Shown: in pieces, positions 19,801 to 44,853 of the stretch
Layout of the letters: the number at the start of each line of letters is the position of its first letter
How positions within the stretch are numbered: position 1 is the stretch's first letter
DNA from: Phycisphaeraceae bacterium
GTDB taxonomy: Bacteria > Planctomycetota > Phycisphaerae > Phycisphaerales > SM1A02
Assembly (NCBI GenBank): GCA_019636755.1
Contig: JAHBWZ010000004.1
Location: 62,001-126,000 of the forward strand
Direction of reading: 5' to 3'
Length of the DNA stretch: 64,000 nucleotides
The notes under the pieces: generated by a model
Databases searched by the model: none
What the model saw: the letters and a program-made list of their open reading frames with translations, nothing else
What the model was told of the DNA's origin: nothing
Program-made: the position numbers and the translations under genes

Positions 19801-20289
19801 ATGCGACGACGACGACTGACCATCCTCGGAACGGGACTCGCATCCCTGCTCGGCATCCTGCTCGGCTCCGGCGCCTTCACGTTCCACTACGGCGAAGGTC
19901 TCTCCTACTTCTCCGGTGACCCGCAGTCCTGCGTCAACTGCCACATCATGCAGCCGCAGTACGACTCCTGGCTGAAGAGCAGCCACCACGCGGTGGCGAC
20001 CTGCGCGGACTGCCACCTGCCGGCGGCGTTCCCGGCGAACCTGATCTCGAAGAGCGACAACGGCTTCTTCCACTCCTGGGCGTTCACGTTCCAGGACTTC
20101 CATGAGCCGATCGTCATGAAGGCAAGGAACCGGCGGATCCTGGAGCAGAACTGCCGCCACTGCCATGAGCCGATCGTGGACGAAATGCTGACCCATCACC
20201 GCGCGCTGCGCGGTGACGACCATATCTCCTGCCTGCACTGCCACGCGGATGTCGGCCACACCGGTCGTCCGCGGAGCATCGGGCGCTGA
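19801..20289 (+). CDS. nrfH: Cytochrome c nitrite reductase small subunit (quinol dehydrogenase)
   Basis: 162 aa. One N-terminal membrane anchor (about residues 7-27) is followed by four CxxCH heme c sites: CVNCH, CADCH, CRHCH and CLHCH, the number expected for NrfH of the NapC/NirT family. NrfH takes electrons from the menaquinol pool and passes them to NrfA on the outer face of the membrane. The HIMQPQYDSW stretch after the first heme matches the family, which uses a Met near heme 1. The start at ATG 19801 follows GGAG by 7 bases. nrfA begins 21 bases downstream, so the two form an operon. Confidence 0.93.
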   Translation: MRRRRLTILGTGLASLLGILLGSGAFTFHYGEGLSYFSGDPQSCVNCHIMQPQYDSWLKSSHHAVATCADCHLPAAFPANLISKSDNGFFHSWAFTFQDFHEPIVMKARNRRILEQNCRHCHEPIVDEMLTHHRALRGDDHISCLHCHADVGHTGRPRSIGR

Positions 20290-20310
20290 CCCGCCGGAGG
20301 ATCCTTCCGC

Positions 20311-21819
20311 ATGTCGACCAGCCAGCCTTCCCCCGCCGCGCGCCGGCCGATCGCCTTCACGATCATCGTGCTCGGGACGGCGGCCGTCACCGTCGTCGTC
20401 CTCCTCCTGCTTGTCAGCATCTTCACGCGGAAGCAGGAGGCACGCGCGCCGTTCCAGCGGCTCGTGGAGGTGACCGAGGACACCGTGGACCCGGCCGTCT
20501 GGGGCGTCAACTGGCCGAGGCAGTACGACAGTTATCGCCGCACCGTAGACAGCGAGCGCACGCGATACGGCGGCAGCGACGCCGTGCCGGTGCAGAAACT
20601 GGACGTCTACCCGTGGCTTCGCACCATGTGGGCGGGGTACGCCTTCTCGCTGGATTACCGCGAAGCGCGCGGACACGCGTACATGCTTTCTGATCAGGAC
20701 CACACGGAGCGCGTCCTTCAGCGGTCCCAGCCGGGCGCCTGCCTGCATTGCCACTCGGCGGTGATGCCCGCGTACCGGTTCGCGGGCAACGGCGACGTCA
20801 TGGCCGGATTCCGCGCCGTCTGCAACATGACGTGGAACGAGGCGAGGAACATGGTGGATGCACACGGCGAGGCGCTGGTCAACCACCCCGTGACCTGCGG
20901 AGACTGCCACGACCCGCAGTCGATGGCGCTGCGCGTGACGCGCCCGGCATTCCTGAACGGTATCAGGGCCCTCAAGGCGTCCGAGGGACTCACGGACTAC
21001 GACGTGAATCGCGACGCGACCCGTCAGGAGATGCGGTCGTACGTCTGTGCGCAGTGTCACGTCGAGTACTACTTCGCGAAGCCCGGCAACGAGGTCACGT
21101 ATCCCTGGCACAACGGGCTGCGCGCCGAACAGATCGAGTCGTACTTCGATGAGATCGGGTTCCACGACTGGACGCACGGCATCACCGGCGCCCCGATGCT
21201 GAAGGCGCAGCACCCTGAGTTCGAACTGTGGGCGCAGGGCATTCACGCCCGTGCCGGCGTCTCCTGTTCGGACTGCCACATGCCCTACCGGCGGGTCGGC
21301 GCAATGAAGGTCTCGGATCATCACGTGCGCAGCCCGCTGCTGGACGTGGCGGCGTCCTGCCAGACGTGCCACAACGTCAGGGAGCAGGAACTCCTGGAGC
21401 GCGTGCACACCATCCAGGACCGGACGCAGGGACTCGTCCGCCGGGCAGCGGCGGCGCTGACAGAGATGATCGAGAGCATCGCCGCGGCCCGCGAGGCCGG
21501 CGCCAGTGAGCAGCAGCTTGCACCGCTGCAGAGGCTGCATCGGCAGGCACAGTGGCGCCTGGACTTCGTCTTCTCGGAGAACTCACACGGCTTCCATGCG
21601 CCGCAGGAGTCGGCACGCATTCTCGCCGAGTCGATCGACTATGCACGCCAGGCGGTCGCGCTGGCGCAGGAAGTCATCGCCCGACCCGCGGGGACGCCGC
21701 GTGACATCGATCGCATCCCGCTGGAAGGCGTCACGCCGACAGAGATGGCGCCGCCCGGCCCCGCGATCGGACCGGTCGCCGCGGCGGACACCGAGGACGC
21801 GCCTCGATCCCCCGGCTGA
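20311..21819 (+). CDS. nrfA: Ammonia-forming cytochrome c nitrite reductase, CxxCH heme-1 variant
   Basis: 502 aa. It catalyses the six-electron reduction of nitrite to ammonium. An uncleaved-looking N-terminal hydrophobic segment (about 14-38) suggests membrane attachment. Five heme sites are visible: CLHCH, CGDCH, CAQCH, CSDCH and CQTCH. The active-site heme 1 normally uses CxxCK; here it is CLHCHSA, so the proximal ligand should be His. Catalytic residues are otherwise present: the Arg in LRVTRPAF, the Tyr in CAQCHVEYYF and the His in KAQHPEFELW. The Lys-x-Gln of KAQ and the Glu before the Tyr also preserve the calcium site. CxxCH-type NrfA is known from Campylobacter-like lineages. It needs no dedicated CxxCK heme lyase, and none is seen here. 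Confidence 0.92.
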   Translation: MSTSQPSPAARRPIAFTIIVLGTAAVTVVVLLLLVSIFTRKQEARAPFQRLVEVTEDTVDPAVWGVNWPRQYDSYRRTVDSERTRYGGSDAVPVQKLDVYPWLRTMWAGYAFSLDYREARGHAYMLSDQDHTERVLQRSQPGACLHCHSAVMPAYRFAGNGDVMAGFRAVCNMTWNEARNMVDAHGEALVNHPVTCGDCHDPQSMALRVTRPAFLNGIRALKASEGLTDYDVNRDATRQEMRSYVCAQCHVEYYFAKPGNEVTYPWHNGLRAEQIESYFDEIGFHDWTHGITGAPMLKAQHPEFELWAQGIHARAGVSCSDCHMPYRRVGAMKVSDHHVRSPLLDVAASCQTCHNVREQELLERVHTIQDRTQGLVRRAAAALTEMIESIAAAREAGASEQQLAPLQRLHRQAQWRLDFVFSENSHGFHAPQESARILAESIDYARQAVALAQEVIARPAGTPRDIDRIPLEGVTPTEMAPPGPAIGPVAAADTEDAPRSPG

Positions 21820-24308: not shown

Positions 24309-25922
24309 TCAGGAGATCGCCTCGCTGACGGGCTCCTGATCATCCTTGAGTTCAGTGACGGCAACATCGGTGGTGAGCATGAGGCCCGAGACCGACGCCG
24401 CGTGCTGGATCGCGGTCTTGACGACCAGCGCGGGATCGATGATGCCCGCCTTGACCAGGTCCTCGAACTGGCCGGTCGCGGCGTTGAGTCCGAACCCGGC
24501 CTTGCCCGCGCGGACCTTCTCGACGACGACATCGCCGTCCAGTCCGGCATTGCTCGCGATCTGCCAGGCCGGCGCCTCGAGCGCCCTCGCCAGGATGTCC
24601 CAGCCGATGCGCTCGTCGCCCTTGCCCCGGCGCCGCCCCTCGGTGACCGCATCGATGACGCGGAGGTACGCGACGCCGCCGCCGGCCACGTAGCCTTCCT
24701 TCGCCGCGGCGCGCGTGGCATGCAGCGCGTCGTCCAGCCGGTCCTTCCGCTCCTTCATGGCCGTCTCCGTGACGGCGCCGCAGGAGATGATCGCAACGCC
24801 GCCGGTCAGCTTGGCGAGCCGCTCCTGGAGCTTCTCGCGGTCATAGTCGCTGGTCGTGCGCTCGATCTGCGTCCGGATCTGACCGGCCCGCGCCTCGATC
24901 TCCGACTTCTTCCCGGCACCGTGGATGATCGTCGTGGCGTCCTTGTCCACCACGACACGCTTCGCCTTGCCGAGTTCACGCAGTTCGATGTCCTCGAGGT
25001 TGCGGCCGATGTCCTCGGAGAAGAACGTACCGCCGGTCAGGACGGCAATGTCCCCGAGCATGGCCTTGCGGCGATCGCCGAACCCGGGCGCCTTGACCGC
25101 GCACACCTTGAGGACGCCGCGGAGCCTGTTGACCACGAGCGCCGCGAGGGCTTCGTTCTCGACCTCCTCGGCGATGATCAGGAGCGGCTGACCGCCGGTG
25201 GCGATCCTGTTGAGCAGCGGCAGGAAATCCGCGAGATTGGAGATCTTCTTCTCGTGGATGAGGATCAGGCAGTCCTCGAGCACGCACTCCGCCTTCTTGG
25301 GGTCGGTCATGAAGTACGGGCTCAGCCAGCCCTTGTCGAAGGACATGCCCTCGACGTACTCCAGCGTGGTCTCGAAGGACTTGCCCTCCTCGACCTCGAC
25401 CACACCGTCCGCACCGACGCGATCGATCGCCTCCGCGATGATCCGGCCGATGGCGCTGTCGTGGTTTGCGGAGACGGTCGCGACCTTCTCCAGGTCCGCA
25501 CGCCCCTTGCACTTCTGCGCCAGTCCGTCGATCGCCTCGCACGCGGCGGCGGCGGCATCGTTGATCCCGCGCTGGATCGCGACGGCATTGCCGCCCACGG
25601 TCACGTGGCGAAGACCCTCGACATAGATGCGATGGGCGAGTACCGTCGCGGTGGTCGTACCGTCACCGGCGAGATCACCGGTCTTCTTCGCGACCTGCAC
25701 GAGCATCTTCGCGCCCATGTTCTCGAACGGCTGCGGGAGTTCGATCTCCTTCGCCACCGTCACGCCGTCCTTGGTCACTGCCGGACCACCGTAGGACTTC
25801 TGAAGCACGACGTTCCGTCCGGTCGGCCCCATCGTGCCGGCGACCGCCCGTGCCACCTTCTCGACGCCCGCGCGGAACTCGTTCCGAGCCGCGGCATCGA
25901 ACTTCATCTGCTTGCTGGCCAT
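24309..25922 (-). CDS. groEL: Chaperonin GroEL paralogue without GGM tail
   Basis: 537 aa Hsp60. ATP-site motifs are intact: [45 protein letters not shown] and [10 protein letters not shown]. Unlike the copy at 26363-28042 it ends [16 protein letters not shown] without the Gly-Gly-Met repeats that normally line the chamber floor. It differs over much of the apical domain. Second GroEL copies without the tail are usually specialised or stress-induced in bacteria with several chaperonins. AAGGAG lies 7 bases before ATG 25922. It starts 24 bases after groES, so it is the downstream gene of a groES-groEL pair. Confidence 0.94.
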
Positions 25923-25946
25923 GACGCTCCTTTCCGGGACGGTGGA

Positions 25947-26237
25947 TCAGCCCTCGATCACGCCGAGAAGTTCGGTCTCGCGCATGATCAGGTGCTTGAC
26001 GTTCTTGATCTCGATCTCGGTCCCGGCGTACTTGCCGAAGACGACGGTGTCACCCTTCCTGACGGAGGGCTTCACGCGCTCGCCGTTGTCCAGGAGCTTG
26101 CCCGGGCCGGTCGCGACGATCGTGCCGCGCATCGGCTTCTCCTTCGCGGTCTCCGGGAGGTAGATGCCCGATGCGGTCTTGCTCTCGGCCTCGATCGGCT
26201 TGACGAGGACGCGGTCTTCCAGTGGTTTGACAGCCAT
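25947..26237 (-). CDS. groES: Co-chaperonin GroES
   Basis: 96 aa, normal for GroES, the heptameric lid of the GroEL chamber. MAVKPLEDRVLVKPIEAE at the start, the mobile loop region SKTASGIYLPETAKEKP (about 19-35) and GDTVVFGKYAGTEIEI later are typical. A GGAGAAG ribosome site precedes ATG 26237. It lies between two groEL genes: 125 bases after the first and 24 bases before the second. It may therefore serve both chaperonins. Confidence 0.95.
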   Translation of the reverse strand: MAVKPLEDRVLVKPIEAESKTASGIYLPETAKEKPMRGTIVATGPGKLLDNGERVKPSVRKGDTVVFGKYAGTEIEIKNVKHLIMRETELLGVIEG

Positions 26238-26341
26238 TGTCGTGCTTCTCCGTGTGCGGGCGCCGCACCCTGTGCAGCCTGCTCCCGCGAGTTCGTGCGT
26301 GTGTTGCTGGCCGGTTCGCGATCGACCCGGCGCGTGGCGAA

Positions 26342-26359
26342 GGCGGCGTCGTCGCCGCC
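26342..26359 (-). terminator. Short GC hairpin after the first groEL
   Basis: Arms 26342-26348 and 26353-26359 form a 7-bp all-GC stem with a four-base loop, 3 bases beyond the groEL stop at 26363. No U run follows, so it could be a processing or attenuation structure between groEL and groES. Confidence 0.3.
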
Positions 26360-26362
26360 GAC

Positions 26363-28042
<1,680 letters not shown>

Positions 28043-30766: not shown

Positions 30767-32374
<1,608 letters not shown>

Positions 32375-32378
<4 letters not shown>

Positions 32379-32758
32379 ACTCTGACTCCCGTAATCGAAC
32401 CGACGATGCGGCAGAGATCCTCCGGCTCGAACGGCTTGCGGAGCGTCTCCCGGATGCCCATTTCCCGCATGCGCCGCAGCCGGTCGTGATTCACTTCCGT
32501 GCTGACGACGACAATCGCGACATCCCTGAGAACCGGATCAGCGCGGGCGAGCCGTGCAAACTCCTCCCCGTCCATCACCGGCATGTTCAGATCCAGCAGA
32601 ACGAGATCAATCCAGACATTGACAAGCAGATCAAGCGCTTCACGCCCGTTCCCCGCCTCGTGGATGCGCTCCGGCGGGATCCCCGCGAGCGTGACGACCT
32701 TCCGGATCGCTCGACGCAGGATGGGAGAGTCATCGACGATGAGTACATTGCAGTTCAT
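32375..32758 (-). CDS. cheY: Single-domain response regulator (CheY-like)
   Basis: 127 aa receiver. Acidic pair in VLIVDDSPIL, phosphoacceptor Asp in LVLLDLNMPVMDG, switch Ser/Thr in VVSTEV, and Lys in LRKPFEPED. All active-site residues are present. It likely receives phosphate from the CheA encoded upstream. It overlaps the HDOD gene by 4 bases at its start and cheX by 4 bases at its end, so it is translationally coupled to both. Confidence 0.9.
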
Positions 32759-33627
32759 GCGCTCCGCTCCGTCGCTCCGGTGCCATGGAGGATCTCCTCA
32801 AGGACACGCAATCGCGCCCAGACAACAGAGATCATCCTTTCCGCGCTGCGCCGGTCGAGCGACATCGCCGCGCGCACGTGCTCTGCCAGGTGGTACCGCA
32901 GACCATCGCCTCCGACTCCAAGTCCAGCCCACAGGCAGATGATGTCGGCCGCGTGGACACAGTCGATCAGTACGTCATGCTCCGCGCCATCCGCGGGTGG
33001 TTCATGGTGATACTCCACGGCCGCGGCGATCCGCTCCGGCAGCTTCCACTTCCGCGCCAGCGCCGCCCCCAGCATCGCGTGATCGAACCCGATTGCATCT
33101 CGCTCCGCCTGAAGGAAGGACACGTCACAACCGGGATGTCGCAGCGCCCGCTCGATCGCAGGCGATTCCGCGCTCCGCTCGATCACGAGCTTCCCGACAT
33201 CGCGCAGGAGCCCGCAGAGAAACGCGAGTTCCGGTTCACCGAATCCCATGCGCTCCGCGAACTCCTCGGCGGCAATGGCGCCGCCCTGAGCGCTGCGCCA
33301 CAGGGCTCCGCGCCGCATGTGGTACGCGCCGCCCATGCCCTCGAAGAGGCTCGCGATCTGCTGATCAAGCACGATGCGAAGCAGCGGCCGCATTCCCAGT
33401 CGGACGATGCTCTGCTCGATATTGAAGGTTCGCGCCGTGACGCCGTACATCGATGAATTTGCGCACCGGAGTACCGCGACACTGATCGACTCGTCCTGGC
33501 GGATGATCTGCGCGATCTCCGCCTGATTCACGTCTTCCTGGAAGAGCATCGTGGTCAGTCTGGCGACGACTGCGGGCAGCACCGGCAGCGATTCCACGTC
33601 GTCGAGAACGGACTCTATTCCGGCCAT
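32755..33627 (-). CDS. HDOD-domain protein
   Basis: 290 aa. N-terminal HDOD domain (about 10-210): LPVLPAVVARLTTML, the RCANSSMYG motif, IEQSIVRLGMRPLLRIVL, CGLLRDVGKLVI and DHAMLGAALARKWKLPERI. It keeps an HD-like pair (LLRDVGK, VEYHHEPPAD), but HDOD proteins generally lack nucleotidase activity and act as signalling scaffolds, often with response regulators. The C-terminal helices (about 230-290) are uncharacterised. ATG 33627 is chosen by the domain start; it overlaps the cheD 3' end by 13 bases. Its placement between cheD and cheY suggests a role in the chemotaxis output, which is inference. Confidence 0.82.
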   Translation of the reverse strand: MAGIESVLDDVESLPVLPAVVARLTTMLFQEDVNQAEIAQIIRQDESISVAVLRCANSSMYGVTARTFNIEQSIVRLGMRPLLRIVLDQQIASLFEGMGGAYHMRRGALWRSAQGGAIAAEEFAERMGFGEPELAFLCGLLRDVGKLVIERSAESPAIERALRHPGCDVSFLQAERDAIGFDHAMLGAALARKWKLPERIAAAVEYHHEPPADGAEHDVLIDCVHAADIICLWAGLGVGGDGLRYHLAEHVRAAMSLDRRSAERMISVVWARLRVLEEILHGTGATERSA

Positions 33628-34136
33628 ATGACGCGCTCCATGCTCGCGTTTCTGACGATGACCGATCCGTCGCTGAGATTCAGTGACATCGTCCGGCTCA
33701 TCGCGCCACCGGTGTCCTCGCCTGAGATGAGGACACTGTTCTTCCAGAAGAGTCTGCGAAGGATCGTCCGGTTTCTCGCCCCGATGCGGAACTGGCTGTC
33801 GGACAGTATCTCCGCACCTCCGGCCGCGCAGACGATCATGCGTTCCTTCCTCGCGCCGAGACCGTAGCACGCATGAAACAGCATCGGCACACCGCTGTCG
33901 GCGAACATGGCGGGCTTCGCCATCGCCTTCTCTTCATTCAATTCCGCCGTTGGAAGCATGAAGTGCAGCATGCCCCCGATCCGTGCTACCGGGTCGTAGG
34001 CAGTGACGCCGATGCACGATCCGAGCGCGTAGGTGATGAGCGTGACTGTCGGATCGTCGTCCACCGCAAGATCCGCCACGCTGACGACGCGATGCACCGT
34101 CCGGGTCTCCGGGAGAATCGTACTGAATCGGCTCAC
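33615..34136 (-). CDS. cheD: Chemoreceptor glutamine deamidase CheD
   Basis: 173 aa. Catalytic Cys in TYALGSCIGVTAYD and His in GGMLHFMLP, both as in the CheD family. CheD deamidates specific receptor glutamines and, in systems with CheC, is coupled to it. The start is GTG 34136, with GAGG upstream. It follows cheR by 27 bases and overlaps the HDOD gene. Only CheX-type, not CheC-type, phosphatases are encoded nearby. Confidence 0.92.
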   Translation of the reverse strand: MSRFSTILPETRTVHRVVSVADLAVDDDPTVTLITYALGSCIGVTAYDPVARIGGMLHFMLPTAELNEEKAMAKPAMFADSGVPMLFHACYGLGARKERMIVCAAGGAEILSDSQFRIGARNRTILRRLFWKNSVLISGEDTGGAMSRTMSLNLSDGSVIVRNASMERVIWPE

Positions 34137-34163: not shown

Positions 34164-34994
34164 CTATTTCCGATACACCGAGGCCTGGACGGCGCGAAAC
34201 GGGACGTCAAGGCCGGACAGCGTCTCCGCGCTGCCCACCGCGAAGACACCGCCGGGACTCAGGATGTCGTAGAACCGGCGAACGAGCTGCAGTCGCGTAG
34301 GCGCATCGAAGTAGATCATCACGTTGCGACAGAAAATCACGTCGAACGGACCGCGCATCGGCCAGTGCTCCATGAGATTCATCCGCGCAACGGAGATCAT
34401 CCGTCGCAGCCGATCGCCCGCGACCGATCGGCCCGGATCCGCGGGGTCCGGGGAGAAATACTTCCGGACCAGGTCCGGCGGAATGTGCTCGATGAGCCTG
34501 CGCTCGTACCGGGCGGCCCGCGCCTGCTGCACGGCGCTGCTTGACAGGTCGGTGGCCAGGATCCGTACGTCCCACTGCTGCCCGTCCGGAAGCGATTCGA
34601 GCGCATTCATCGCGAGCGTGCACGGCTCGCATCCGATCGAGCATCCAGCCGACCAGATGCGGATCCGGCGTCCGGGTGTGGTGGTGTCTCCGCGTGCCAG
34701 CGGCGTGTAGAACTGCCGCTCCAGGTACTCGAAGTGGGCAGGATCGCGGAAGAAGCTCGTCACGTTCGTCGAAAGGACGTCGAAGAACGCCAGCATGTCC
34801 TCATGACCTGCGTCCTGTTCGAGGTACTCGAGGTACGCGTCGACTCCGGAGAACCTGCTGCCGCGCAGGAGCGACCCGAGCCGGTTTCCGACCAGCGACC
34901 GCTTCCGCTCGGTCAGCGCGAGTCCCCAGCGATGCCGCGCAATGCGCGCAATGCGCTCAAACTGCCCGGGCATGAGTTCAGTCATCGGTGTCAT
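34164..34994 (-). CDS. cheR: Chemotaxis methyltransferase CheR, atypical SAM loop
   Basis: 276 aa from ATG 34994. The N-terminal helical domain has ALTERKRSLVGNRLGSLLR. The Rossmann domain has STNVTSFFRDPAHFEYLE, IWSAGCSIGCEPCTLAM, ILATDLSSSAVQQAR, and FDVIFCRNVMIYFD. It methylates receptor glutamates using S-adenosylmethionine. The SAM-binding loop normally reads AGCSTGEEPYTLAM. Here Thr, Glu and Tyr are replaced by Ile, Cys and Cys; the codons (ATC, TGC, TGC) read cleanly. Other motifs are intact. Alternative starts are 34985 and 34973. A strong hairpin lies just upstream (35002-35031), covering the likely ribosome-binding site. Confidence 0.88.
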   Translation of the reverse strand: MTPMTELMPGQFERIARIARHRWGLALTERKRSLVGNRLGSLLRGSRFSGVDAYLEYLEQDAGHEDMLAFFDVLSTNVTSFFRDPAHFEYLERQFYTPLARGDTTTPGRRIRIWSAGCSIGCEPCTLAMNALESLPDGQQWDVRILATDLSSSAVQQARAARYERRLIEHIPPDLVRKYFSPDPADPGRSVAGDRLRRMISVARMNLMEHWPMRGPFDVIFCRNVMIYFDAPTRLQLVRRFYDILSPGGVFAVGSAETLSGLDVPFRAVQASVYRK

Positions 34995-35051: not shown

Positions 35052-36968
35052 TCAGAAGCTCGCAAGCACTTCACCATCGTCCAGCGGGATCGGATGCGAA
35101 GCACGGCTCGTGCCTCCGCCGGACCGGGGACCCGCGCCCCCTCGCCGCCCTGGTCCCGCGGGCGTTCTGGACCTGCCGGACACGGAACCTCCGGCGCGGG
35201 CGCCTCCCGGACCCGCCGCCTGGCCCGCGCCCGGCGCGGATCCCCGTCCCCCCGCGCCCCCCGCCGCCGGTCCGACAGCCTGAACGACCGCGTTCACCTT
35301 GAACCGGCGCACGAGCTCCTGCAGGGACGCCACCTGCGCGGACGTCTGCTCTGCACTGGAGGCGAGTTCCTCGGCATTGCCCGCGTTCTGCTGCGTGACC
35401 TTGTCGAGTTCGGCAACGCCGGTATTGATCTGGTTGATGCCCGATGCCTGCTCGGTCGAGGCCGAGGCGATCTCCGCCAGCAGGGTGTTGACCTTGTTGG
35501 TACTTCCGGCGATCTCCTCGAGCGCCTGACCCACCCGTTCGGCAATCTGCACGCCGTTGTCCGACCGCCTCACGGACTCCTCGATCATGGACGAGGTGTT
35601 CCGAGCGGCCTCCGCCGAGCGCTGCGCCAGATTGCGTACCTCCTCGGCCACCACTGCGAACCCCTTGCCGGCCTCTCCCGCCCGTGCGGCCTCAACAGCC
35701 GCGTTGAGCGCCAGCAGGTTCGTCTGAAACGCGATCTCGTCGATGACCTTGATGATCTTCGAGATCTCCGCGGAAGACTGCTTGATGGCACTCATGGCCT
35801 GCGACATCTGCGTCATCTCGTGCTGTCCGCAATCGGCCGCCTTCCTGGACTCCTCAGCAAGTGCGTTCGCCTGCCTGGCGTTCTCCGCATTCTGCTGCGT
35901 CATCGCCGACATCTCTTCGATCGACGCGCTGATCTCCTCCAGGCTGGACGCCTGCTCGGAGGATCCCTCGGCAAGTGACTGGCTGGCGCCGGCGATCTGT
36001 GAAGCACCGTCGTCGATCTCACTCGTTCCCTGCGAGACCGACGCGATGATGTCATGCAGCGTCTCGACCAGACCGTTGAAGCTGCGACCGAGCAGCCCGA
36101 TCTCGTCCCTGGAACTGACCTCGACCCTGCGGGTCATGTCCGAGGTCTCCTGGATCTCGCGGATCCGCGCGATCAGCGAGGCAAGCGGGCGCCCGAACAT
36201 CACGCGCAGCATCCAGATGAAGAGGACAATCGAGCCGATGCCGATCGGTACCGTCCACGTCAGGCCATCTGCGATGAAGTGCGCCACCTCCTCATCGACC
36301 GGGTCCAGCGGCATCTGCACGTGGTACGACCCGTGCATGAACCCGACGCGCCAGCCCTCCATCGGAAAGCCGACGATATCCCGGCCGGTGGGGTTCTCCG
36401 GTCCCGGAGTACCGTGGCAGGAAAGGCAGTCGGCGGTCAGGCGGATCGCCCGCATGTAGTGAAGCATGTTGGCATCGCGGTCGACCCTGCTGATCCACTC
36501 GTTTCCCCCGGCGCTCACCTGCGACATCAGGTCGCGCAGCATCTTCTCATCGAACGAACCCGCGGCTGGCTGGTTCTCCGGGTTGCGCGCGTCGAACGAT
36601 GTGATCCGGAAGTCGACGCCCTCTCGCGCCGCCGCCTCCCTCGCCGCGGTCCAGCCGGCGACGACAGGAATGGCGGGGTAGATCGCCGCATCCCGGTACG
36701 AGCGGCCGGATGCCTGCACCTGCTTCAACTCCGCCAGCAGCGACTCGCGATCGATCGCATTCTTCTCCCACAGGAGCGTCACATGACTCTTGGCTTCGTC
36801 CGCGACGGCGGTGAAGGCGGCGGCGCGGTCGACCATCGCATTCTCCGCCGCGGCCGTGAAGTCGCGTGCGAGGACAATGTAGTTGACAATCACGATTGCG
36901 ATCAGCACCGTGACCGTCATCGCGATGATTCTGGTTCCCAGACCGAGTGTCTTGACAAAGTTCCGCAT
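35052..36968 (-). CDS. Methyl-accepting chemoreceptor with c-type heme (DUF3365-like) sensor
   Basis: 638 aa. TM1 at about 13-34; periplasmic sensor about 35-235 with an [11 protein letters not shown] heme c site (about 178-188) in a DUF3365/Tll0287-like domain ([37 protein letters not shown]); TM2 about 237-258 ([18 protein letters not shown]). A HAMP domain follows, then a long coiled-coil signalling domain with the hairpin tip [20 protein letters not shown] and [20 protein letters not shown]. The C-terminus is a Gly/Ala/Pro-rich disordered tail. AAGGAGA precedes ATG 36968. The heme suggests sensing of redox state, NO or oxygen. The receptor is embedded between cheW and cheR, so it is the cognate receptor of this cluster. 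Confidence 0.9.
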
Positions 36969-37010: not shown

Positions 37011-37583
37011 TCAGACGGAAGCGGGCTGTACATCACCCGCCGACTCGCAGGGCGCTGGCGCAGCGGCAATCCGCGCGGCATCCTCTGCGGTGATCACGTG
37101 CCTGATACTCAGAAGTATGACGACCTTGCTGCGGACCTTGCCGATGCCCAGAAGGTACTGCACCGGGACCGAGCAGCCGAAGCTCGGCGTCGGATCGATC
37201 TGGCCTCGCGCGATGTCCAGCACCTCTCTGACAGAGTCCACGATGATGCCGATCTGCGTCGCATCACCGCTTGCCGGGTCTTCCACCTCGACGACGATGA
37301 TGCATGTCTGTTCGGTGTACGGCGTCGACGTGAGACCGAATTTCGCGCGCAGCTCGATGACGGGAATGATCCTGCCGCGCAGATTGATCACGCCCTTGAC
37401 GTAGTGCGGCGTCTGGGGAAGCGGCGTGATGTCGAGAAGGCAGATGATCTCCCGGACCGCGAGGATCTCCAGCGCATATTCCTCCTCGCCGAGGCAGAAC
37501 GAAAGGAACCGGTCACAGCTGCTGCCGTTTCCGCCGTGCCCGCCAGTGCCCGCGGTCGCGGGCCGTTCAAGTGTCGTGGTCAT
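37011..37583 (-). CDS. cheW: Chemotaxis coupling protein CheW
   Basis: 190 aa. A short Gly/Thr-rich N-terminus (1-24) precedes the CheW domain: FLSFCLGEEEYALEILAVRE, LPQTPHYVKGVINLRGRIIP, VIELRAKFGL and GIIVDSVREVLDI. It bridges receptors and CheA at the membrane. AGGGGA lies about 8 bases before ATG 37583. 27 bases after cheA and 42 bases before the chemoreceptor, in one operon. The C-terminal extension after RHVITAEDAARI is short and Ala-rich. Confidence 0.93.
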   Translation of the reverse strand: MTTTLERPATAGTGGHGGNGSSCDRFLSFCLGEEEYALEILAVREIICLLDITPLPQTPHYVKGVINLRGRIIPVIELRAKFGLTSTPYTEQTCIIVVEVEDPASGDATQIGIIVDSVREVLDIARGQIDPTPSFGCSVPVQYLLGIGKVRSKVVILLSIRHVITAEDAARIAAAPAPCESAGDVQPASV

Positions 37584-37610: not shown

Positions 37611-40094
37611 TCATTCCGGTCGCCGAACGGCCTGTTGAATGATTCCGCTGACATCAAGGATGAGCGCCACGCGCCCGTCGCCCAGGATCGCGCCGCCGGA
37701 GACGCCTCGCATCGCCTCCATCCCTCTTCCGAGACTCTTGATGACGACCTGCTGCTGCCCGATGATCTCGTCGACCATCAGCGCGCAGCGCCCCTCATTG
37801 GATTCGAGCACGATCAGCAGTGCATCGCGAGGATCAGTGACCCCGTCGTCGACGCCGAGGACGGAGTGCAGTCGATGCACGGGAAGCACGCTTCCGCGTA
37901 CCGAGACCATCTCGCCCCGCTGGACGATCGAACTCAGGTCCCCGGACGCCGGCCGGAAGCTGTGCTCGATCGAGAGGGTCGGGATCACATAGCGATGTGG
38001 TCCGACCCGGACGATCATGCCATCGATGATCGCCATGGTGAGAGGAAGCCGCATCAGGAACGTGGTTCCCCGGCCGTGCTCGGATCGGATATCCACCTTC
38101 CCGCGGAGTGCCTCGATGTTCCGACGCACAACGTCCATGCCGACACCGCGACCGGATATGTCCGTAACCTGCTCGGCGGTCGAGAAGCCTGGCAGGAAGA
38201 TCATGTTGAAGACATCGGACTCAGAGAGTTCCTCGGGGTTGCGTCCGACGGGGACGACGCCCCTGTCGATCGCCTTCCGCAGGATCCGCTGCCGGTCCAG
38301 ACCGCGTCCGTCATCCTCGATCTCGATCACGATCGAACCGCCCGCGTGATAGGCGCGCAGTGTGACGCTCCCCGACTCGGGCTTGCCTGCCCGGCGACGT
38401 TCATCGGCCGGCTCGATGCCGTGGTCGCAGGAGTTCCTCACCATGTGGACAAGCGGATCCGCGATCTCCTCGACCACGTTGCGGTCCAGTTCCACGTCCT
38501 CCCCCTCGCAATGGAACTGGATCCTCTTGCCGGCCTTCGCGGCCACGTCCCGGACCAGGCGTGCCATCTTCTGGAACGTCCCCCGGAGGTTCACCATCCG
38601 CAGTGACATTGATACGCCCTGAAGATCCCGGACGATCTTCCAGACATGGCTGAGATTGCGCTGAAGCCGGACATCGGTGATGCGAAGATCGTTGGCATCC
38701 TGCATGACCATCTGCTGCGCGATGACGAGTTCACCGACCATCGTCACCAGGTTGTCCATGCGCAGCGTGCTGACCTTGACGGTCTGATCCGTGCGGGGAC
38801 GGGTCGGCCGCGCTGTCGGACCGGACTCGCCGGCAGCGGCCGGCCGGCTCTCCGGCCCCGAGGGCACGGCGCCGGTCGCAGGGGCGCGGATGGTTCCGGC
38901 CTCCGCCGGCTTGCCCTTCGCAACGGCCGCGAGTTCCGCATTCAGCGCGTCGTATCCCGCGCGCGACGGACCCTCCCCGCCTCCGGGGACGCCGACGAGC
39001 TGCCGCATGACATCGCAGGCGACGAGGACGAGATCGAGTGCGGCCCGATCCAGCGTAAGCGCGGCTGATCGTGCGGCGTCGAGGAGGTACTCCGCATTGT
39101 GCGCGAGATGGGCGATCGGCTGCAGGCCGAGGAATCCGGCGACACCCTTGATCGTGTGGAACGCGCGGAAGACGGTATTGATCAGTTCGCGATCTGACGG
39201 CTCCTGCTCGAGAGACAGCAGGGATTCCTCGGCCGCATCAATGTGGTCGTGCGCCTCGGTCAGGAACTCCCGCAGGCTCTCCGCCTGCGCCGGATCGACC
39301 AGGAGCGTGATCCGGTCATCGGCCGAGTCTTCCGTCGCGGCCGGTGCCCCGTCGGGGTCGCGCGGAGTTCCTGGCGCCGCCACCCGCCGGAGCTGCGCGC
39401 GGATCCGGTCATGACCGTCCGCGCCACACGTCGGGTCCTCGCCCAGGCGGCCCAGGAACGTCCGGAACCAGTCCAGCATCAGGAGCAGTGCCTCGGCCGG
39501 GAAGCTGCAGGCACCCGCGGTATGTGCATCCACGACCGATTCCGCGTCATGGAACAGTGCCTGGGCGTCATGGAGCCCGAGGACTCCGCACTCACCCTTG
39601 ATCGTGTGAAGCGTCCGCCGCAGTGCCGCCAATTCCTCCGCAGCCTGACCGCCCGGCACCTCCGTCGCCTCGACCGCCAGCACGCACGCTTCGAGATCGC
39701 CGATGAGCCGGCTGCTGTTCTCTATCCACTCGCGCAGGAGTTCGGGGTCCTCGGCCGGGCCCGCCGCACCGCTGCCGGACACCGACAGGGCCTGCCTGTC
39801 ACGCGCCAGGCCTGCGGCGGGCCGCCGGCCTTCGACGGCTGTCTGCACCCCGGTGATCACGGCCAGGACCGCTGCGAACTGCGCATCCGCGTCCTCCGCG
39901 GTGCGCAGAACGATCGACTCGATGCCGCAGATGGCCGCCTCCAGGCCCGCCACGACATCGGTGAGCGCCTTCGCCTCCGCGTCCGCACGGCACCGCTCGC
40001 AGAGATCCTGCAGCGCGACCAGGCCCGGCAGGTCACCCGGATCCGTCGCCAGGGCCGATCGCGAAAGTGTCTCCATGTGCTCAAGGCCAGCCAC
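37611..40094 (-). CDS. cheA: Chemotaxis histidine kinase CheA with two HPt domains
   Basis: 827 aa. Two phosphotransfer domains are visible, each with an HTIKG histidine: LHTIKGECGVLG (near residue 165) and FHTIKGVAGFLG (near 315). A Pro/Ala linker (about 395-450) replaces a P2 domain. The dimerisation helices follow (MDNLVTMVGELVIAQQM), then the kinase core with N box HMVRNSCDHGIEPADE and G boxes IEDDGRGLD and DISGRGVGMDVV, and the CheW-like regulatory domain ending VALILDVSGIIQQAV. There is no receiver domain. The start is GTG 40094 with GGAGAG 6 bases upstream; ATG 40076 is an alternative. First gene of the leftward operon. Confidence 0.94.
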   Translation of the reverse strand: MAGLEHMETLSRSALATDPGDLPGLVALQDLCERCRADAEAKALTDVVAGLEAAICGIESIVLRTAEDADAQFAAVLAVITGVQTAVEGRRPAAGLARDRQALSVSGSGAAGPAEDPELLREWIENSSRLIGDLEACVLAVEATEVPGGQAAEELAALRRTLHTIKGECGVLGLHDAQALFHDAESVVDAHTAGACSFPAEALLLMLDWFRTFLGRLGEDPTCGADGHDRIRAQLRRVAAPGTPRDPDGAPAATEDSADDRITLLVDPAQAESLREFLTEAHDHIDAAEESLLSLEQEPSDRELINTVFRAFHTIKGVAGFLGLQPIAHLAHNAEYLLDAARSAALTLDRAALDLVLVACDVMRQLVGVPGGGEGPSRAGYDALNAELAAVAKGKPAEAGTIRAPATGAVPSGPESRPAAAGESGPTARPTRPRTDQTVKVSTLRMDNLVTMVGELVIAQQMVMQDANDLRITDVRLQRNLSHVWKIVRDLQGVSMSLRMVNLRGTFQKMARLVRDVAAKAGKRIQFHCEGEDVELDRNVVEEIADPLVHMVRNSCDHGIEPADERRRAGKPESGSVTLRAYHAGGSIVIEIEDDGRGLDRQRILRKAIDRGVVPVGRNPEELSESDVFNMIFLPGFSTAEQVTDISGRGVGMDVVRRNIEALRGKVDIRSEHGRGTTFLMRLPLTMAIIDGMIVRVGPHRYVIPTLSIEHSFRPASGDLSSIVQRGEMVSVRGSVLPVHRLHSVLGVDDGVTDPRDALLIVLESNEGRCALMVDEIIGQQQVVIKSLGRGMEAMRGVSGGAILGDGRVALILDVSGIIQQAVRRPE

Positions 40095-40437: not shown

Positions 40438-40929
40438 ATGCCCATGGACGCTGCCTACATCAATCCGTTCATCGATGCGACACAGCGCGTCTTCCGATCG
40501 ATGCTCGACCTCGATGTCGCGACGGGCACCCCTGCGATGTGCCGATCTCTTCCGCAGTTCGACGTATCCGGCATCATCGGCATGTCCGGCGATGTGATCG
40601 GCTGCGTCGTGCTGAGCCTCCCCCTCACCGTCGCCCGACCGGTGGTCGGAAGGCTCCTCGGCACGGAGGTCTCTCATACGTGCGAGGACTTCGCCGACGC
40701 AGTCGGTGAACTCGTCAACATGATCTCCGGCGCCGCCAAGGCGCAGTTCGATGGCAAGGAGGTCAGCATCAGTTGCCCGTCGATCATCATCGGCCGGGGC
40801 CATCATGTTGCCCGTCCGAGCAATACCGTCTGCGTTTCCATCCCCTGCGAGGTCTACTGCGGATCATTCAGCGTCGATCTCGCGATCCGGCCGATCGCCG
40901 GCCCGGCGGAGAAGCCGGCACCAGCATGA
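40438..40929 (+). CDS. cheX: CheX-like CheY-P phosphatase
   Basis: 163 aa from ATG 40438. It is the better match of the two CheX copies: MDAAYINPFIDATQRVF at the start, IGMSGDVIGCVVLSLP in the middle and FADAVGELVNMISGAAK with the ExxN catalytic pair. It should dephosphorylate CheY and help terminate signalling. An in-frame extension upstream reads through the control region and is not conserved. It is the first gene of the rightward unit, 46 bases before the second cheY. Confidence 0.85.
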   Translation: MPMDAAYINPFIDATQRVFRSMLDLDVATGTPAMCRSLPQFDVSGIIGMSGDVIGCVVLSLPLTVARPVVGRLLGTEVSHTCEDFADAVGELVNMISGAAKAQFDGKEVSISCPSIIIGRGHHVARPSNTVCVSIPCEVYCGSFSVDLAIRPIAGPAEKPAPA

Positions 40930-40975
40930 CCGTGACCCGGTCGATCACCACCTGAACATTCGGGAGACTGCATCC

Positions 40976-41347
40976 ATGCGTATTCTGCTCATTGACGACT
41001 CGAGGACCATGCGCAACATCGAGAAAGGCATCCTCGCCCAGATCGGCTACACGGACGTGGAGGAGGCGGTCGACGGTCAGGACGCGCTGTCGAAGGTCGA
41101 CGCCGTCAATCCCGGCCTGATTCTCGTCGACTGGAACATGCCGAACATGGACGGGCTCTCGTTCGTGAAGGCGTATCGCGGCATGGGAAACAGGACGCCG
41201 GTCATCATGGTCACGACCGAGTCGGAGAAGTCGCGGGTCGTCGAAGCGATCAAGGCCGGTGTCAACAACTACGTCGTGAAGCCATTCACGCCGGAGACTC
41301 TCTCGCAGAGACTCCTGGAAACGATCGCGAAGTCGAAGGCAGCGTGA
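40976..41347 (+). CDS. cheY: Chemotaxis response regulator CheY
   Basis: 123 aa receiver with ILLIDDSRTMRNIE, phosphoacceptor Asp in LILVDWNMPNMDG, Thr-Thr in MVTTESEKS and Lys in VVKPFTPET. The length and the WNMPNMDG stretch are typical of motor-binding CheY proteins. GGGAG lies about 9 bases before the ATG. It is probably cotranscribed with cheX on its left and the FapA-like gene 40 bases to its right. Compared with the copy at 32375-32758 it is the more canonical CheY. Confidence 0.92.
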   Translation: MRILLIDDSRTMRNIEKGILAQIGYTDVEEAVDGQDALSKVDAVNPGLILVDWNMPNMDGLSFVKAYRGMGNRTPVIMVTTESEKSRVVEAIKAGVNNYVVKPFTPETLSQRLLETIAKSKAA

Positions 41348-41387
41348 GCTCCCGGTCACCCGGGGCCGCGTCTCAAGGGGCAGGCAG

Positions 41388-42884
41388 ATGACAGAGGAAT
41401 CAACGGTTCGTATCAGCGTGGATGCCGACGGAAGCACCGCTCGGGTTCACATCCCGGCATCGTTCGATCCGGCTGCATTGACCGTTTCCCTGCTGGCCGC
41501 GTGCGCGGCGGGCGCAGGCGTTCGGATTTCCGCGCAGGTGCACGCGGGACTGGCGCAGGCAGCCGATCGGTTCCGCCGGGATCCATCCGATCTCAGTGCG
41601 GTGGTCGCGCGGGCGACGCCGCCGGTCCACGGCAACGATGGAGAACTTCTCTGGCAGCCCGGCTTCGATCCGACTCCGTCGAGCTCTGAGCCGGTGGCGG
41701 AGAACTCGGCCGTCGATCACTACGCGGGCCGGACCTACGTGCGGGTCGCACCCGGTGATCACGTGGCGACGCTGCGCCTCCCGACGCCGGGCGAGGACGG
41801 CTCGAACGTACTGGGCGAGGTGCTCAAGGCCAGGCCGGGGCGCCCCGGCACACTTCGACCGGAGGCCGGCTTCGAGATCGACGCGGAGAACCGGGTCATC
41901 GCCGTGTCCGACGGCGTTCTGGCGGTCAGCCGCGGTGCTCTCTCGATCACGAAGCTCCTCGAGGTCAAGGGATACGTCGACTTCGAGACCGGCAACATCG
42001 ACTTCGACGGTTCGGTGGACATCCGTGAAGGTGTCCGCGACCGGTTCGTCGTGAAGGCAACCGGCAACGTGACCATAGGAGGACTGATCGAATCGGCGAC
42101 GATCGAGTGCGGCGGAGACCTCTCCTGCGGTCGCGGCGCGGCCGCGCGCGATCGTGGCACCATCACCGTCGGCGGCAACGTCGACATCGGATTCCTGAAC
42201 AACACGCGCGGCATGATCGGCGGGACGCTGAGCGTCCGCCGGGAGATCATCAACTGCGACCTGGCGATCGACGGCACCCTGCTGGGCGAGTCGGCGGCGC
42301 TGATCGGCGGGCTCGTCGTGGCGGGCGCTGACGTCTCCATCGGAACGCTCGGATCCGATGGAGACCGCGCGACCGTTCTTCGGGTCGGTGCAATGCCGGT
42401 CCTTGCCGACCGCCTGCGCGAGTGTGAGCGCGCAGCTGACGGCCTCCGTGCGCGCATCGCTCGCCTGAACGAGAGTCTCATCCAGGCCGGTCGGCTCGGC
42501 AGGCAGGCGACCGCCTCGGATCGCGAGCGCATGACTGAACTCAGCTACGAGATCGATGATCTCACCCGCCTGCTCCACGCCGAAGAGGAGCAGTGCGCGG
42601 CGCTTCGGGCCATCCGTGCCGCACCGCGACGGTTGAACGTGCGCGTCGGAAAGTGCATCCATCCCGGCGTCCGCATCGAGTCGGACTCCGCCGAGATCGT
42701 GTTCGAGCAGATGGTCCGTGGACCAGTGCACCTGTCCTGCGACGGATCGGGCGAGGTCACGTTCCGGATCGGCGACGGGCCGCCGCGCCCGGTCACCGAG
42801 ATCGCCGTCGTGCGGCGGAAGAGGCCAGCAGCGACCGGGTCCGCCGGCGCCGAAGAGGCGCATCCGGTCCCGGCCGCTGCGTGA
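41388..42884 (+). CDS. FapA/DUF342 domain protein
   Basis: 498 aa. An N-terminal segment (1-80) is followed by the DUF342 core: YAGRTYVRVAPGDHVATLRL, GEDGSNVLGEVLKARPG, VKGYVDFETGNIDFDGSV then a parallel-beta-helix-like series (VTIGGLIESATIECGGDL, ITVGGNVDIGFLNNTRGM). A central coiled coil (about 345-410, LRECERAADGLRARIARL) and a C-terminal beta strand region complete it. Such proteins are called flagellar assembly protein A and occur with chemotaxis or flagellar genes; their biochemical role is unclear. It starts 40 bases after cheY. No flagellar structural genes are in this window. Confidence 0.82.
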   Translation: MTEESTVRISVDADGSTARVHIPASFDPAALTVSLLAACAAGAGVRISAQVHAGLAQAADRFRRDPSDLSAVVARATPPVHGNDGELLWQPGFDPTPSSSEPVAENSAVDHYAGRTYVRVAPGDHVATLRLPTPGEDGSNVLGEVLKARPGRPGTLRPEAGFEIDAENRVIAVSDGVLAVSRGALSITKLLEVKGYVDFETGNIDFDGSVDIREGVRDRFVVKATGNVTIGGLIESATIECGGDLSCGRGAAARDRGTITVGGNVDIGFLNNTRGMIGGTLSVRREIINCDLAIDGTLLGESAALIGGLVVAGADVSIGTLGSDGDRATVLRVGAMPVLADRLRECERAADGLRARIARLNESLIQAGRLGRQATASDRERMTELSYEIDDLTRLLHAEEEQCAALRAIRAAPRRLNVRVGKCIHPGVRIESDSAEIVFEQMVRGPVHLSCDGSGEVTFRIGDGPPRPVTEIAVVRRKRPAATGSAGAEEAHPVPAAA

Positions 42885-42939: not shown

Positions 42940-44853
42940 TCACGCCGGTTCCGGCCGATTGAGTCCGATGACGTGCGAGACGCGGCCGGCGTCGTCGTGG
43001 ACGGCGATGCCCTGACCCCTCAGCGTCCGCACGCTTCCATCCGGCAGCCGGACACGACCGCGTGCCTCGAAGCGCTCGCCGGTCTCGATCGACCGCTCCA
43101 GCGCCGCGCACAGCGCCGCGCGATCCTCCGGGAGGACGACCTTGTTGATGATGACGTCCACGCTGGCCGGAAAAGTCTCCCGCGGAACGCCGAGCAGCCG
43201 GCAGAGTCCTTCCGAGGCGTGAAGGGTCCGGTCGGGGACATCGACCTGCCAGGTTCCGATCTCAGCGATGAGTTCGGCATACGCGAGCATGAGCTGCTTG
43301 CGACGGAGCTCCATTCCATGATGCTTCTGACTCGTGATGTCCTCCACCGTCCCGAGGCCGCTGACCGCGGTTCCGTCCGGGCCGAACGTGACCTCGGCGC
43401 GTTCCCGCACCCACCGGACCTCGCCATCGGCCAGGATGCGATGGACAAGGTCGTACGGATGACCTCGAAGGGCGGCGGTCCAGGCTGCCATGACGGCGTC
43501 CCGATCATCGGGGTGGACCCGCGCCAGGAAGAGATCCAGGGTCACCGGCGTGCCGTGATCCATGCCGAAGATCCGGTAGGTCTCCTCGGACCAGGTCAGT
43601 GCGCCGCTCGCGATGTCGATCATCCAGCTGCCGACCTTCGCGACCGCCTGCGCCCGCCGGAGTTCCCTTTCGCGCCGCCGCAGGTCTTCCTCGGCCATCT
43701 TGCGATCGTGAACATCGCGCGAACTGCTGATGATCCAGTCGACCTCGCCCGTCACCTCGTCGTGGTGGGCATACACGTTCGACTGAAACCATCGGTAGCT
43801 TCCGTCGAAGCGGAGACGACGCAGATCGACCGAGGCCCGGTCGCACCCGTGCATGAGCGATAGGCAGGTCTTTGAAATGACCGGCCCGTCATCGGGATGA
43901 AAGAAGTCGAAGACGGACCGCCCCAGCATCTCCTGCGGGCGGAATCCCAGGAGCGCCCGACACGAGGGGGAGACATAGATGTACTTCAGTTCCGGACTGA
44001 TCAGGGACACGATGTCGCTCGTGTTCTCGGCGAGCAGGCGGTACCGTGCCTCGCTCGCCCGGAGTTCCTCCTCGCGGCGCAGCCGCTCCAGCTCGGCCGC
44101 GGCACGGGCGCCGAAGATCCGCAGAATGAGTTCCGGGCAGCGCGACTCATCCGGCGGATCCCCGCCATGCAGCACCGCGAGCGTACCGATCCGGCCTCCG
44201 CTTGAATCGCAGAGCGGTGTGATCATGAGTCCCTCGGCACCCAGGTCCCTGTACGCGACGATCGACGGGAACAGCGCCTGGAGCGACGATGGAATTCTCC
44301 TGATGGTCGCCCGTTCCATGAACTCGCACGGTGAACCGGCGAAGGCATAGGAAAGGTCCCGAGGCCATCCCTCCGGTGCCCAGCCGGCGATCACGCGCAG
44401 AACGCCGTCGGCGTCCAGTCGCGCCACATAGGCGCCGACAGCGTCGAAGGCGCGGCCGACATGCTCGACCAGCGCCTGCAGGAAGGCCTCGCCGGTCACG
44501 GCCGCGGTCGCCGCATCGATTCTCCGCAACACCTGCTCACCCGACACGTCGACCGCGCTGATCGCCCGCCGCAGTACCTCACCTTCCACCATCTGCCCGC
44601 CCGGTCCCGCCCGATCGACGCCGGCCAGGCCCGCCTCGACGGCCATGAGCGCGAGCTCCACGCGATTCCTGGCGCCGAGCCTCTTGCCGAGCACCATCCG
44701 GTGCGACTCGACCGTCTTCGCTGTCCGATGGAGCCGCTCGGCGATCTCCGCGGTCGTCAGGCCGGCACCGATCATCGAGAGGATCTCGCGTTGTCGCTCC
44801 GTCAGTCCCGCGATGCGCTCCGCCAGCGGGACCGGCATGACCCGATCATCCAT
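42940..44853 (-). CDS. Sensor-regulator with N-terminal LuxR HTH, GAF and three PAS domains
   Basis: 637 aa. Residues 12-72 are a LuxR/GerE helix-turn-helix (LTERQREILSMIGAGLTTAE, RTAKTVESHRMVLGKRLG). A GAF-like domain follows (about 110-265, GRAFDAVGAYVARLDADGVL), then three PAS/PAC units (about 275-390, 395-510, 515-635; each ending in a motif such as DWIISSSRDVHDRK or GLGTVEDITSQK). There is no kinase, cyclase or receiver. In most LuxR-type proteins the HTH is C-terminal; here it is first, with sensors behind it. It could be a one-component regulator that binds a small molecule or cofactor. ATG 44853 has no strong ribosome site. Confidence 0.8.
   Translation of the reverse strand: MDDRVMPVPLAERIAGLTERQREILSMIGAGLTTAEIAERLHRTAKTVESHRMVLGKRLGARNRVELALMAVEAGLAGVDRAGPGGQMVEGEVLRRAISAVDVSGEQVLRRIDAATAAVTGEAFLQALVEHVGRAFDAVGAYVARLDADGVLRVIAGWAPEGWPRDLSYAFAGSPCEFMERATIRRIPSSLQALFPSIVAYRDLGAEGLMITPLCDSSGGRIGTLAVLHGGDPPDESRCPELILRIFGARAAAELERLRREEELRASEARYRLLAENTSDIVSLISPELKYIYVSPSCRALLGFRPQEMLGRSVFDFFHPDDGPVISKTCLSLMHGCDRASVDLRRLRFDGSYRWFQSNVYAHHDEVTGEVDWIISSSRDVHDRKMAEEDLRRRERELRRAQAVAKVGSWMIDIASGALTWSEETYRIFGMDHGTPVTLDLFLARVHPDDRDAVMAAWTAALRGHPYDLVHRILADGEVRWVRERAEVTFGPDGTAVSGLGTVEDITSQKHHGMELRRKQLMLAYAELIAEIGTWQVDVPDRTLHASEGLCRLLGVPRETFPASVDVIINKVVLPEDRAALCAALERSIETGERFEARGRVRLPDGSVRTLRGQGIAVHDDAGRVSHVIGLNRPEPA

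Follow-up and report, generated by a model that had tools for sequence, protein, structure and literature searches.

Which signal is perceived by a methyl-accepting chemotaxis protein (MCP) with a heme c attachment motif, and how much of a cell's taxis depends on it, are questions raised by a gene of a Phycisphaerales planctomycete (Phycisphaeraceae bacterium, assembly GCA_019636755.1), which is situated in a window of 64,000 nucleotides, i.e., the whole stretch of DNA analysed here. Many well-studied bacteria mix several receptors per array, which hides the role of each input, and Geobacter, where heme-c receptors are found, possesses many other MCPs. A flagellated cell with one heme-c receptor type, together with relatives bearing other inputs, offers a natural comparison for the share of NO and redox sensing in taxis; the same comparison could reveal at which receptor joints an input can be changed, and the newly assayed sCache_heme domain becomes tied to a complete chemotaxis pathway near nitrite-ammonification genes.

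The receptor, its operon and its heme site

The product of the receptor gene (Table 1) is very probably a heme-c chemoreceptor, as judged from its translation. Its sensor domain matches PF11845 (Tll0287-like/DUF3365) with 65.3 bits at a curated Pfam cutoff of 24.1 and contains one CxxCH, which bears out the sequence-only reading that had prompted this analysis. Composition shuffles of the protein yielded a CxxCH in 4 of 20000 cases, and Cys is found at positions 181, 184 and 380 only, the last of them within the signalling half. The sensor domain is predicted to be periplasmic because hydrophobic segments (7-41 and 235-266) bracket it, one on each side. The cytoplasmic part aligns with E. coli Tsr over equal lengths (240-560 to 199-519), which presumably puts the receptor in the 36H-type chemoreceptor class.

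Table 1. Positions of the receptor, its parts and neighbouring genes in the window.
Feature	Position	Strand	Basis
nrfH and nrfA, ammonia-forming nitrite reductase	19801..21819	+	Pfam over cutoff; NCBIfam NrfA models under cutoffs
cheB	30767..31831	-	Pfam
cheX phosphatase	31923..32378	-	Pfam
cheY, receiver domain alone	32375..32758	-	Pfam
HDOD-domain gene of the che operon	32755..33627	-	Pfam
cheD	33615..34136	-	Pfam
cheR	34164..34985	-	Pfam; start from codon usage
Heme-c chemoreceptor, 638 aa (TM1, sCache_heme, TM2, HAMP, MCP signalling domain, flexible tail)	35052..36968	-	ORF and Pfam
VLASF at the C-terminus, possibly tethering adaptation enzymes	35055..35069	-	Translated sequence
MCP signalling domain (MCPsignal), residues 370-525	35394..35861	-	Pfam
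HAMP domain, residues 260-306	36051..36191	-	Pfam
Tll0287-like/sCache_heme domain, residues 41-220, predicted periplasmic	36309..36848	-	PF11845, AF2 model, Foldseek
His212; Arg in Tll0287 and three aligned stand-alone members	36333..36335	-	Alignment; His 84/84
CLSCH, motif for attachment of heme c, including His185; residues 181-185	36414..36428	-	Translated ORF
Pro101; Cys in this column in Tll0287 and in three aligned stand-alone members	36666..36668	-	Alignment; Pro 84/84
cheW	37011..37583	-	Pfam
cheA	37611..40076	-	Pfam; start from codon usage
Divergent cheX, receiver-type gene, fapA	40444..42884	+	Receiver gene 40976-41347 named from sequence only

The Pfam matches give the minus-strand order cheA-cheW-MCP-cheR-cheD-HDOD-cheY-cheX-cheB, and the receptor lies, as had been stated, between cheW and cheR of a complete che operon. 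Elsewhere in the window, the product of 42940-44853 (-) begins with a LuxR-type HTH, followed by several PAS domains, which is the reverse of the usual order; at 24309-28042 (-), a GroES-like gene is situated between two different GroEL-like genes, all three named by sequence. Concerning the C-terminal tail of the receptor, complete receptor tails exhibit IP[LMF] and, at their end, [FL]xxF. Known CheR/CheB pentapeptides are aromatic at both position 2 and position 5 (PMC7390727); VLASF, with its Leu at position 2, lies outside this definition. At this position, the five complete tails on non-heme inputs possess Phe (L148, L149, L150, L152) or Leu (L157).

An AlphaFold2 model of residues 14-258, which was built without heme, reached a mean pLDDT of 95.5. 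In a Foldseek search of the PDB with this model, Tll0287 (5b82) took rank 1 (E 1.9e-6, rmsd 3.1), and GSU0935 (3b42) took ranks 2 and 4 as weak matches (E 0.023 and 0.055; rmsd 13.7 at rank 2, about 14 at both). The helix that carries CxxCH (179-185) is predicted to be inserted between strands 168-176 and 211-220, a layout of the Cache type. The DUF3365/Tll0287 fold has been moved from the PAS to the Cache superfamily and named sCache_heme in a 2026 preprint (PMC12889525), in which the CXXCH motif is described as conserved at 99% or more and fusions to MCPs are named. The receptor thus joins a family already described, with MCP fusions already known.

Relatives were collected by searching genome contigs once with a profile of the sensor domain, and 80 of 105 were kept; according to a hand count of titles, 46 of the 80 loci are Phycisphaer- and seven of Verrucomicrobia-type, with several from other planctomycetes or groups. 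The alignment comprises 84 rows, namely 82 ORFs from these 80 loci and the two receptors of the source genome, with a 98-aa frameshift fragment of L098, which lacks the motif, left out. Since the scan pattern covers residues 52-61, away from CxxCH, Lys60 was selected for and CxxCH was not. C181, C184, H185, P101, W206 and H212 are identical in all rows; the sequence-only reading had allowed for a CxxCH not conserved in orthologues, and it is present in 84 of 84. In two relatives (L106 and L114), the MCP half is situated outside the ORF of the sensor domain.

The Cys that stand-alone members possess in the column of Pro101 is taken to be their axial Cys, a reading drawn from the Cys/His ligation described in PMC12889525 and not from a structure. 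Its replacement by Pro throughout the alignment is as expected of an open, NO-sensor-like site, heme and ligand themselves being predicted from the sequence pattern. With the distal pocket judged by sequence alone, the invariant His212, or another residue, could also serve as a heme ligand.

The receptor set of the source genome and the putative signal

The source genome (4.11 Mb in 20 contigs, 99.43% complete) contains two MCPs according to both Pfam and a protein search, and both carry PF11845. A recheck with a 315-aa query (HAMP and signalling half) strongly matched the same two again; its two other matches were weak and partial (E 0.004 and 0.1). As read from this assembly, the heme receptor and one paralogue constitute the whole receptor set found. 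The paralogue (L132 8858-10819) stands at the head of a separate cheR-cheD-HDOD-cheY-cheX-cheB run, and this second che set is split between contig 15 (L132:4511-10819, -) and contig 17 (cheA2-cheW2, L133:7658-10603, +). Between the set of the window (own1) and the second set (own2), identity amounts to 47% in cheA, 47% in cheW, 60% in MCP, 60% in cheR, 66% in cheD, 40% in HDOD, 63% in cheY, 50% in cheX and 54% in cheB. A recent duplication of the operon was rejected because of this range of 40-66% and because six genes of own1 (cheA, cheW, cheD, HDOD, cheY, cheB) are closer to those of another operon, L064, than to own2, with the reverse found for MCP, cheR and cheX.

A third PF11845 protein of the genome is stand-alone and has kept the Cys (L134:7297-7965, +; genome C15:287569-287952), which makes it a ready Cluster 1 control in the same genome. 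A sigma-factor-like gene, likewise named by sequence, adjoins it.

Flagellin-N gave three matches over cutoff in the genome. A cluster of ccmE/F/A/B/C-like genes is present, in which PF01578 matches the F- and C-like proteins above its cutoff and CcmA exceeds that of TIGR01189, whereas for E, F, B and C the NCBIfam matches stay below cutoff. The nrfHA genes, which had been noted for the same genome, are indeed found, within the same window. Of the two COX1-family matches in the genome, one is a cbb3 oxidase (over cutoff) and the other aa3-like (656 bits, cutoff 671). Genome-wide, no NirK was found over cutoff, the sole match to a Cu-nitrite reductase being far below it, and no NorB, both COX1-family matches being oxidases; any NO may therefore originate from a side activity of NrfA or from neighbouring organisms. 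The nrfHA genes, the ccm-like genes, the oxidases and the flagellins fit with taxis in response to NO or redox conditions.

We favour, at a probability of roughly 0.58, NO as the main signal of this periplasmic sCache_heme chemoreceptor, which would be the resident input of its complete che operon. The Ccm system would attach heme to CLSCH, with His185 as the proximal ligand. The distal site would be open or water-bound, because it has neither the Cys of the stand-alone members nor, as far as spacing alone can tell, a counterpart of Met60 in the Geobacter sensors, and it would bind NO like the related signalling-fused protein assayed in PMC12889525. Binding or loss of the ligand would shift the Cache dimer, HAMP and the activity of CheA, phosphorylated CheY would set the flagellar motor, and CheR, CheB and CheD would adapt the receptor, with the C-terminal tail as a candidate tether. 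The resulting behaviour would be taxis in gradients of NO or redox potential at oxic-anoxic boundaries. Domain order, operon, conservation of the motif, loss of the Cys and receptor count can be read from the DNA directly; the choice of NO is drawn from one distant homologue assayed in PMC12889525.

In that preprint, a signalling-fused test protein without axial Cys released NO slowly and formed no stable O2 complex, whereas a stand-alone test protein bound NO weakly and gave no stable O2 complex either. The observation made by the sequence-only reading is confirmed and its interpretation partly supported: of the taxis toward nitrite or redox gradients and the NO sensing that it had proposed, NO sensing is made plausible by the assay of the signalling-fused member (PMC12889525), whereas direct sensing of nitrite by this domain finds no support. 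The O2 data also argue against a sensor of oxygen (or CO) for aerotaxis, as has been proposed for DcrA, which is described as sensing both redox potential and oxygen (PMC8396549); although the cbb3 oxidase suggests a microaerobic life, we regard this function as improbable.

Redox potential itself might be the signal, such that periplasmic carriers reduce or oxidise the heme iron and a change in spin or coordination is signalled, as proposed for GSU0582 and GSU0935; NO binding would then be incidental, and two receptors would cover two ranges of potential. The heme MCP pair of Geobacter, with potentials of -156 and -251 mV, has been interpreted by such a redox model (PMC8396549); the source genome has a pair of heme MCPs as well, with 58% identity across their first 240 residues, and the multiheme nrfHA. 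However, the ligand that switches in Geobacter is Met60 (PMC8396549), and the position that corresponds to it by spacing is Pro in 84 of 84 rows: 84 residues separate the proximal His from Met60 in GSU0935, as they do His185 from Pro101, the GSU sequences being unaligned. We regard a redox sensor as a tentative and less likely alternative to the favoured NO receptor.

A further alternative is that the che run steers a non-flagellar output, i.e., another cellular function, which the heme receptor would control. An HDOD gene within the operon and the existence of a second che gene set would agree with this; however, flagellins are present, cheX and fapA adjoin the operon, and the genome yielded no more than two MCPs and two kinases of the CheA type, so that we consider this explanation very improbable.

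The receptor slot in related operons

Among 201 genomes, the source genome included, an MCP is found in 110, a PF11845 match in 55 and a flagellin-N match in 145. The MCPs are all of the heme type in at least four of the 110 (G000 with 2/2; G060, G142 and G159 with 1/1 each), as counted by hand from tables, G060 being 76% complete and G180, with one MCP, standing outside the rows counted. The MCP counts of G029 and G010 may be incomplete because contigs break inside the receptor slot.

With the second HDOD protein as query, matches of at least 40% identity were obtained in 19 further genomes; the orthologous operons read were a chosen set from 9 of these 19, together with L064 and the two own sets, some of them broken by contig ends. 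A heme c receptor is situated in the slot in own1, own2 (beside cheR2), G060, G029 (cut by a contig end) and L064; the same che order with a heme receptor is found in L064 and, to the extent covered by their contigs, in L057/L058. In other operons, the slot contains a receptor with NIT, a domain for nitrate and nitrite sensing (G010, L158:4941-6830, +; slot across two contig ends), three receptors with CHASE3 (G012), receptors with PAS (G191 and G036, the latter cut) or one with beta-carbonic anhydrase (G070), and it is empty in G016 and G071. In L064, G012 and G010, cheW is separated from the receptor by long ORFs. Two G082 contigs without che neighbours, one with a heme receptor and one with a helical-bimodular receptor, are outside this count. 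The signalling halves in the slot are 70-78% identical to that of own1 (the cut G029 matching over 54 residues only), whereas, among the slot receptors compared, only heme receptors matched own1 within its first 240 residues. The receptor is found beside cheW and cheR in related operons, too; the heme receptor as dedicated input, however, holds for the source genome but not in general, since other inputs occupy the same slot in relatives.

In an operon tree based on eight concatenated Che proteins from 12 operons (cheA and cheW in 10 of the 12), and in a six-gene version of it, the NIT operon G010 is placed beside own1 (SH-aLRT/UFBoot 99.5/100 with eight genes, 90.6/89 with six); two operons that are neighbours in the tree therefore carry different inputs. 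Operons with a heme receptor, a NIT receptor or an empty slot group together, apart from those with PAS, CHASE3 and carbonic anhydrase (97.4/79; six genes 97.3/63). Because the order within this group is mostly unresolved, heme may have entered once and later been lost or replaced. The placement of own2 varies: it stands with the empty-slot operons in FastTree (0.967), beside L064 in the eight-gene IQ-TREE analysis (35.4/27) and beside own1 and G010 in the six-gene one (89.3/37). The receptor tree unites own1, own2, L058 and L064 in a single clade (96) without a firm inner order. By reasoning, the six states, the empty slot included, need at least five changes.

We propose that the operon is conserved and that its input domain can be exchanged like a plug, as far as the compared sequences indicate. 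On the whole, we lean towards a general picture in which chemotaxis in these Phycisphaerales often depends on one or two receptors, the input half being swapped within a conserved operon and the signalling half and C-terminal tail being kept; since both receptors of the source genome, in two long-diverged che sets, appear committed to heme c, its only taxis would be directed by NO or redox conditions.

Three further observations concern these contigs. In G070, the only MCP found (C10, L148:3768-7346, +) is a presumably membrane-anchored beta-carbonic anhydrase (Pro_CA 123.5 bits, cutoff 25.7) fused to HAMP-MCP, with a His-rich stretch and a number of hydrophobic segments in between. Its carbonic-anhydrase domain carries CSDSR and HTQC, which we take to be the zinc site, and the product is possibly a receptor for CO2, bicarbonate or pH; no fusion of beta-carbonic anhydrase with a methyl-accepting chemotaxis protein was found in the open-licence literature, which is weak evidence. 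Verrucomicrobia-type contigs (L054, L060, L066, L067, L068, L071, L075) contain a heme-c receptor before cheW-cheB-cheR, 1-2 further MCPs and, where the contig reaches, cheA upstream. The L064 operon (contig QWIH01000011.1), which is of the type described here, stems from a record titled Leptolyngbya sp. PLA1, a title that may be a misassignment; in the receptor tree, its receptor clusters with one from Phycisphaerales and with both own receptors.

Comparison with known heme-c receptors

The statement of the sequence-only reading that only a few heme-c chemoreceptors have been studied agrees with the three described in PMC8396549, namely GSU0582, GSU0935 and DcrA, but has to be modified insofar as the family has been surveyed and two of its members assayed (PMC12889525). 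In the open-licence literature on Phycisphaer- and other planctomycetes, no report of such receptors was found, which is weak evidence.

The organization of the receptor is similar to that of the Cluster 2 sCache_heme proteins (PMC12889525), i.e., the domain is fused with TM helices and with a signalling module in the order TM-domain-TM-HAMP, carries CxxCH in a Cache fold and, as in the assayed member, lacks the axial Cys. It differs from what is described for them in being the sole input type found in its genome and in its invariant Pro101 and His212; furthermore, the host is a planctomycete, a word absent from the main text of PMC12889525. Tll0287 (5B82) and the stand-alone member of the source genome share the domain family and CxxCH, whereas they are stand-alone and possess Cys where the receptors have Pro.

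Among chemoreceptors, DcrA of Desulfovibrio vulgaris is likewise a periplasmic heme-c receptor (PMC8396549), likened here by description and not by sequence, and it has a cytoplasmic PAS domain in addition. GSU0582 and GSU0935 of Geobacter sulfurreducens (3B47, 3B42) also possess a periplasmic heme c sensor domain of this kind, two TMs, HAMP and an MCP module (PMC8396549); they bind NO and CO and have nevertheless been argued to be redox sensors (PMC8396549; PMC3460858). In GSU0935, the distal ligand is Met60, whereas the planctomycete receptor has Pro at that distance from the proximal His, as determined by spacing and not by alignment.
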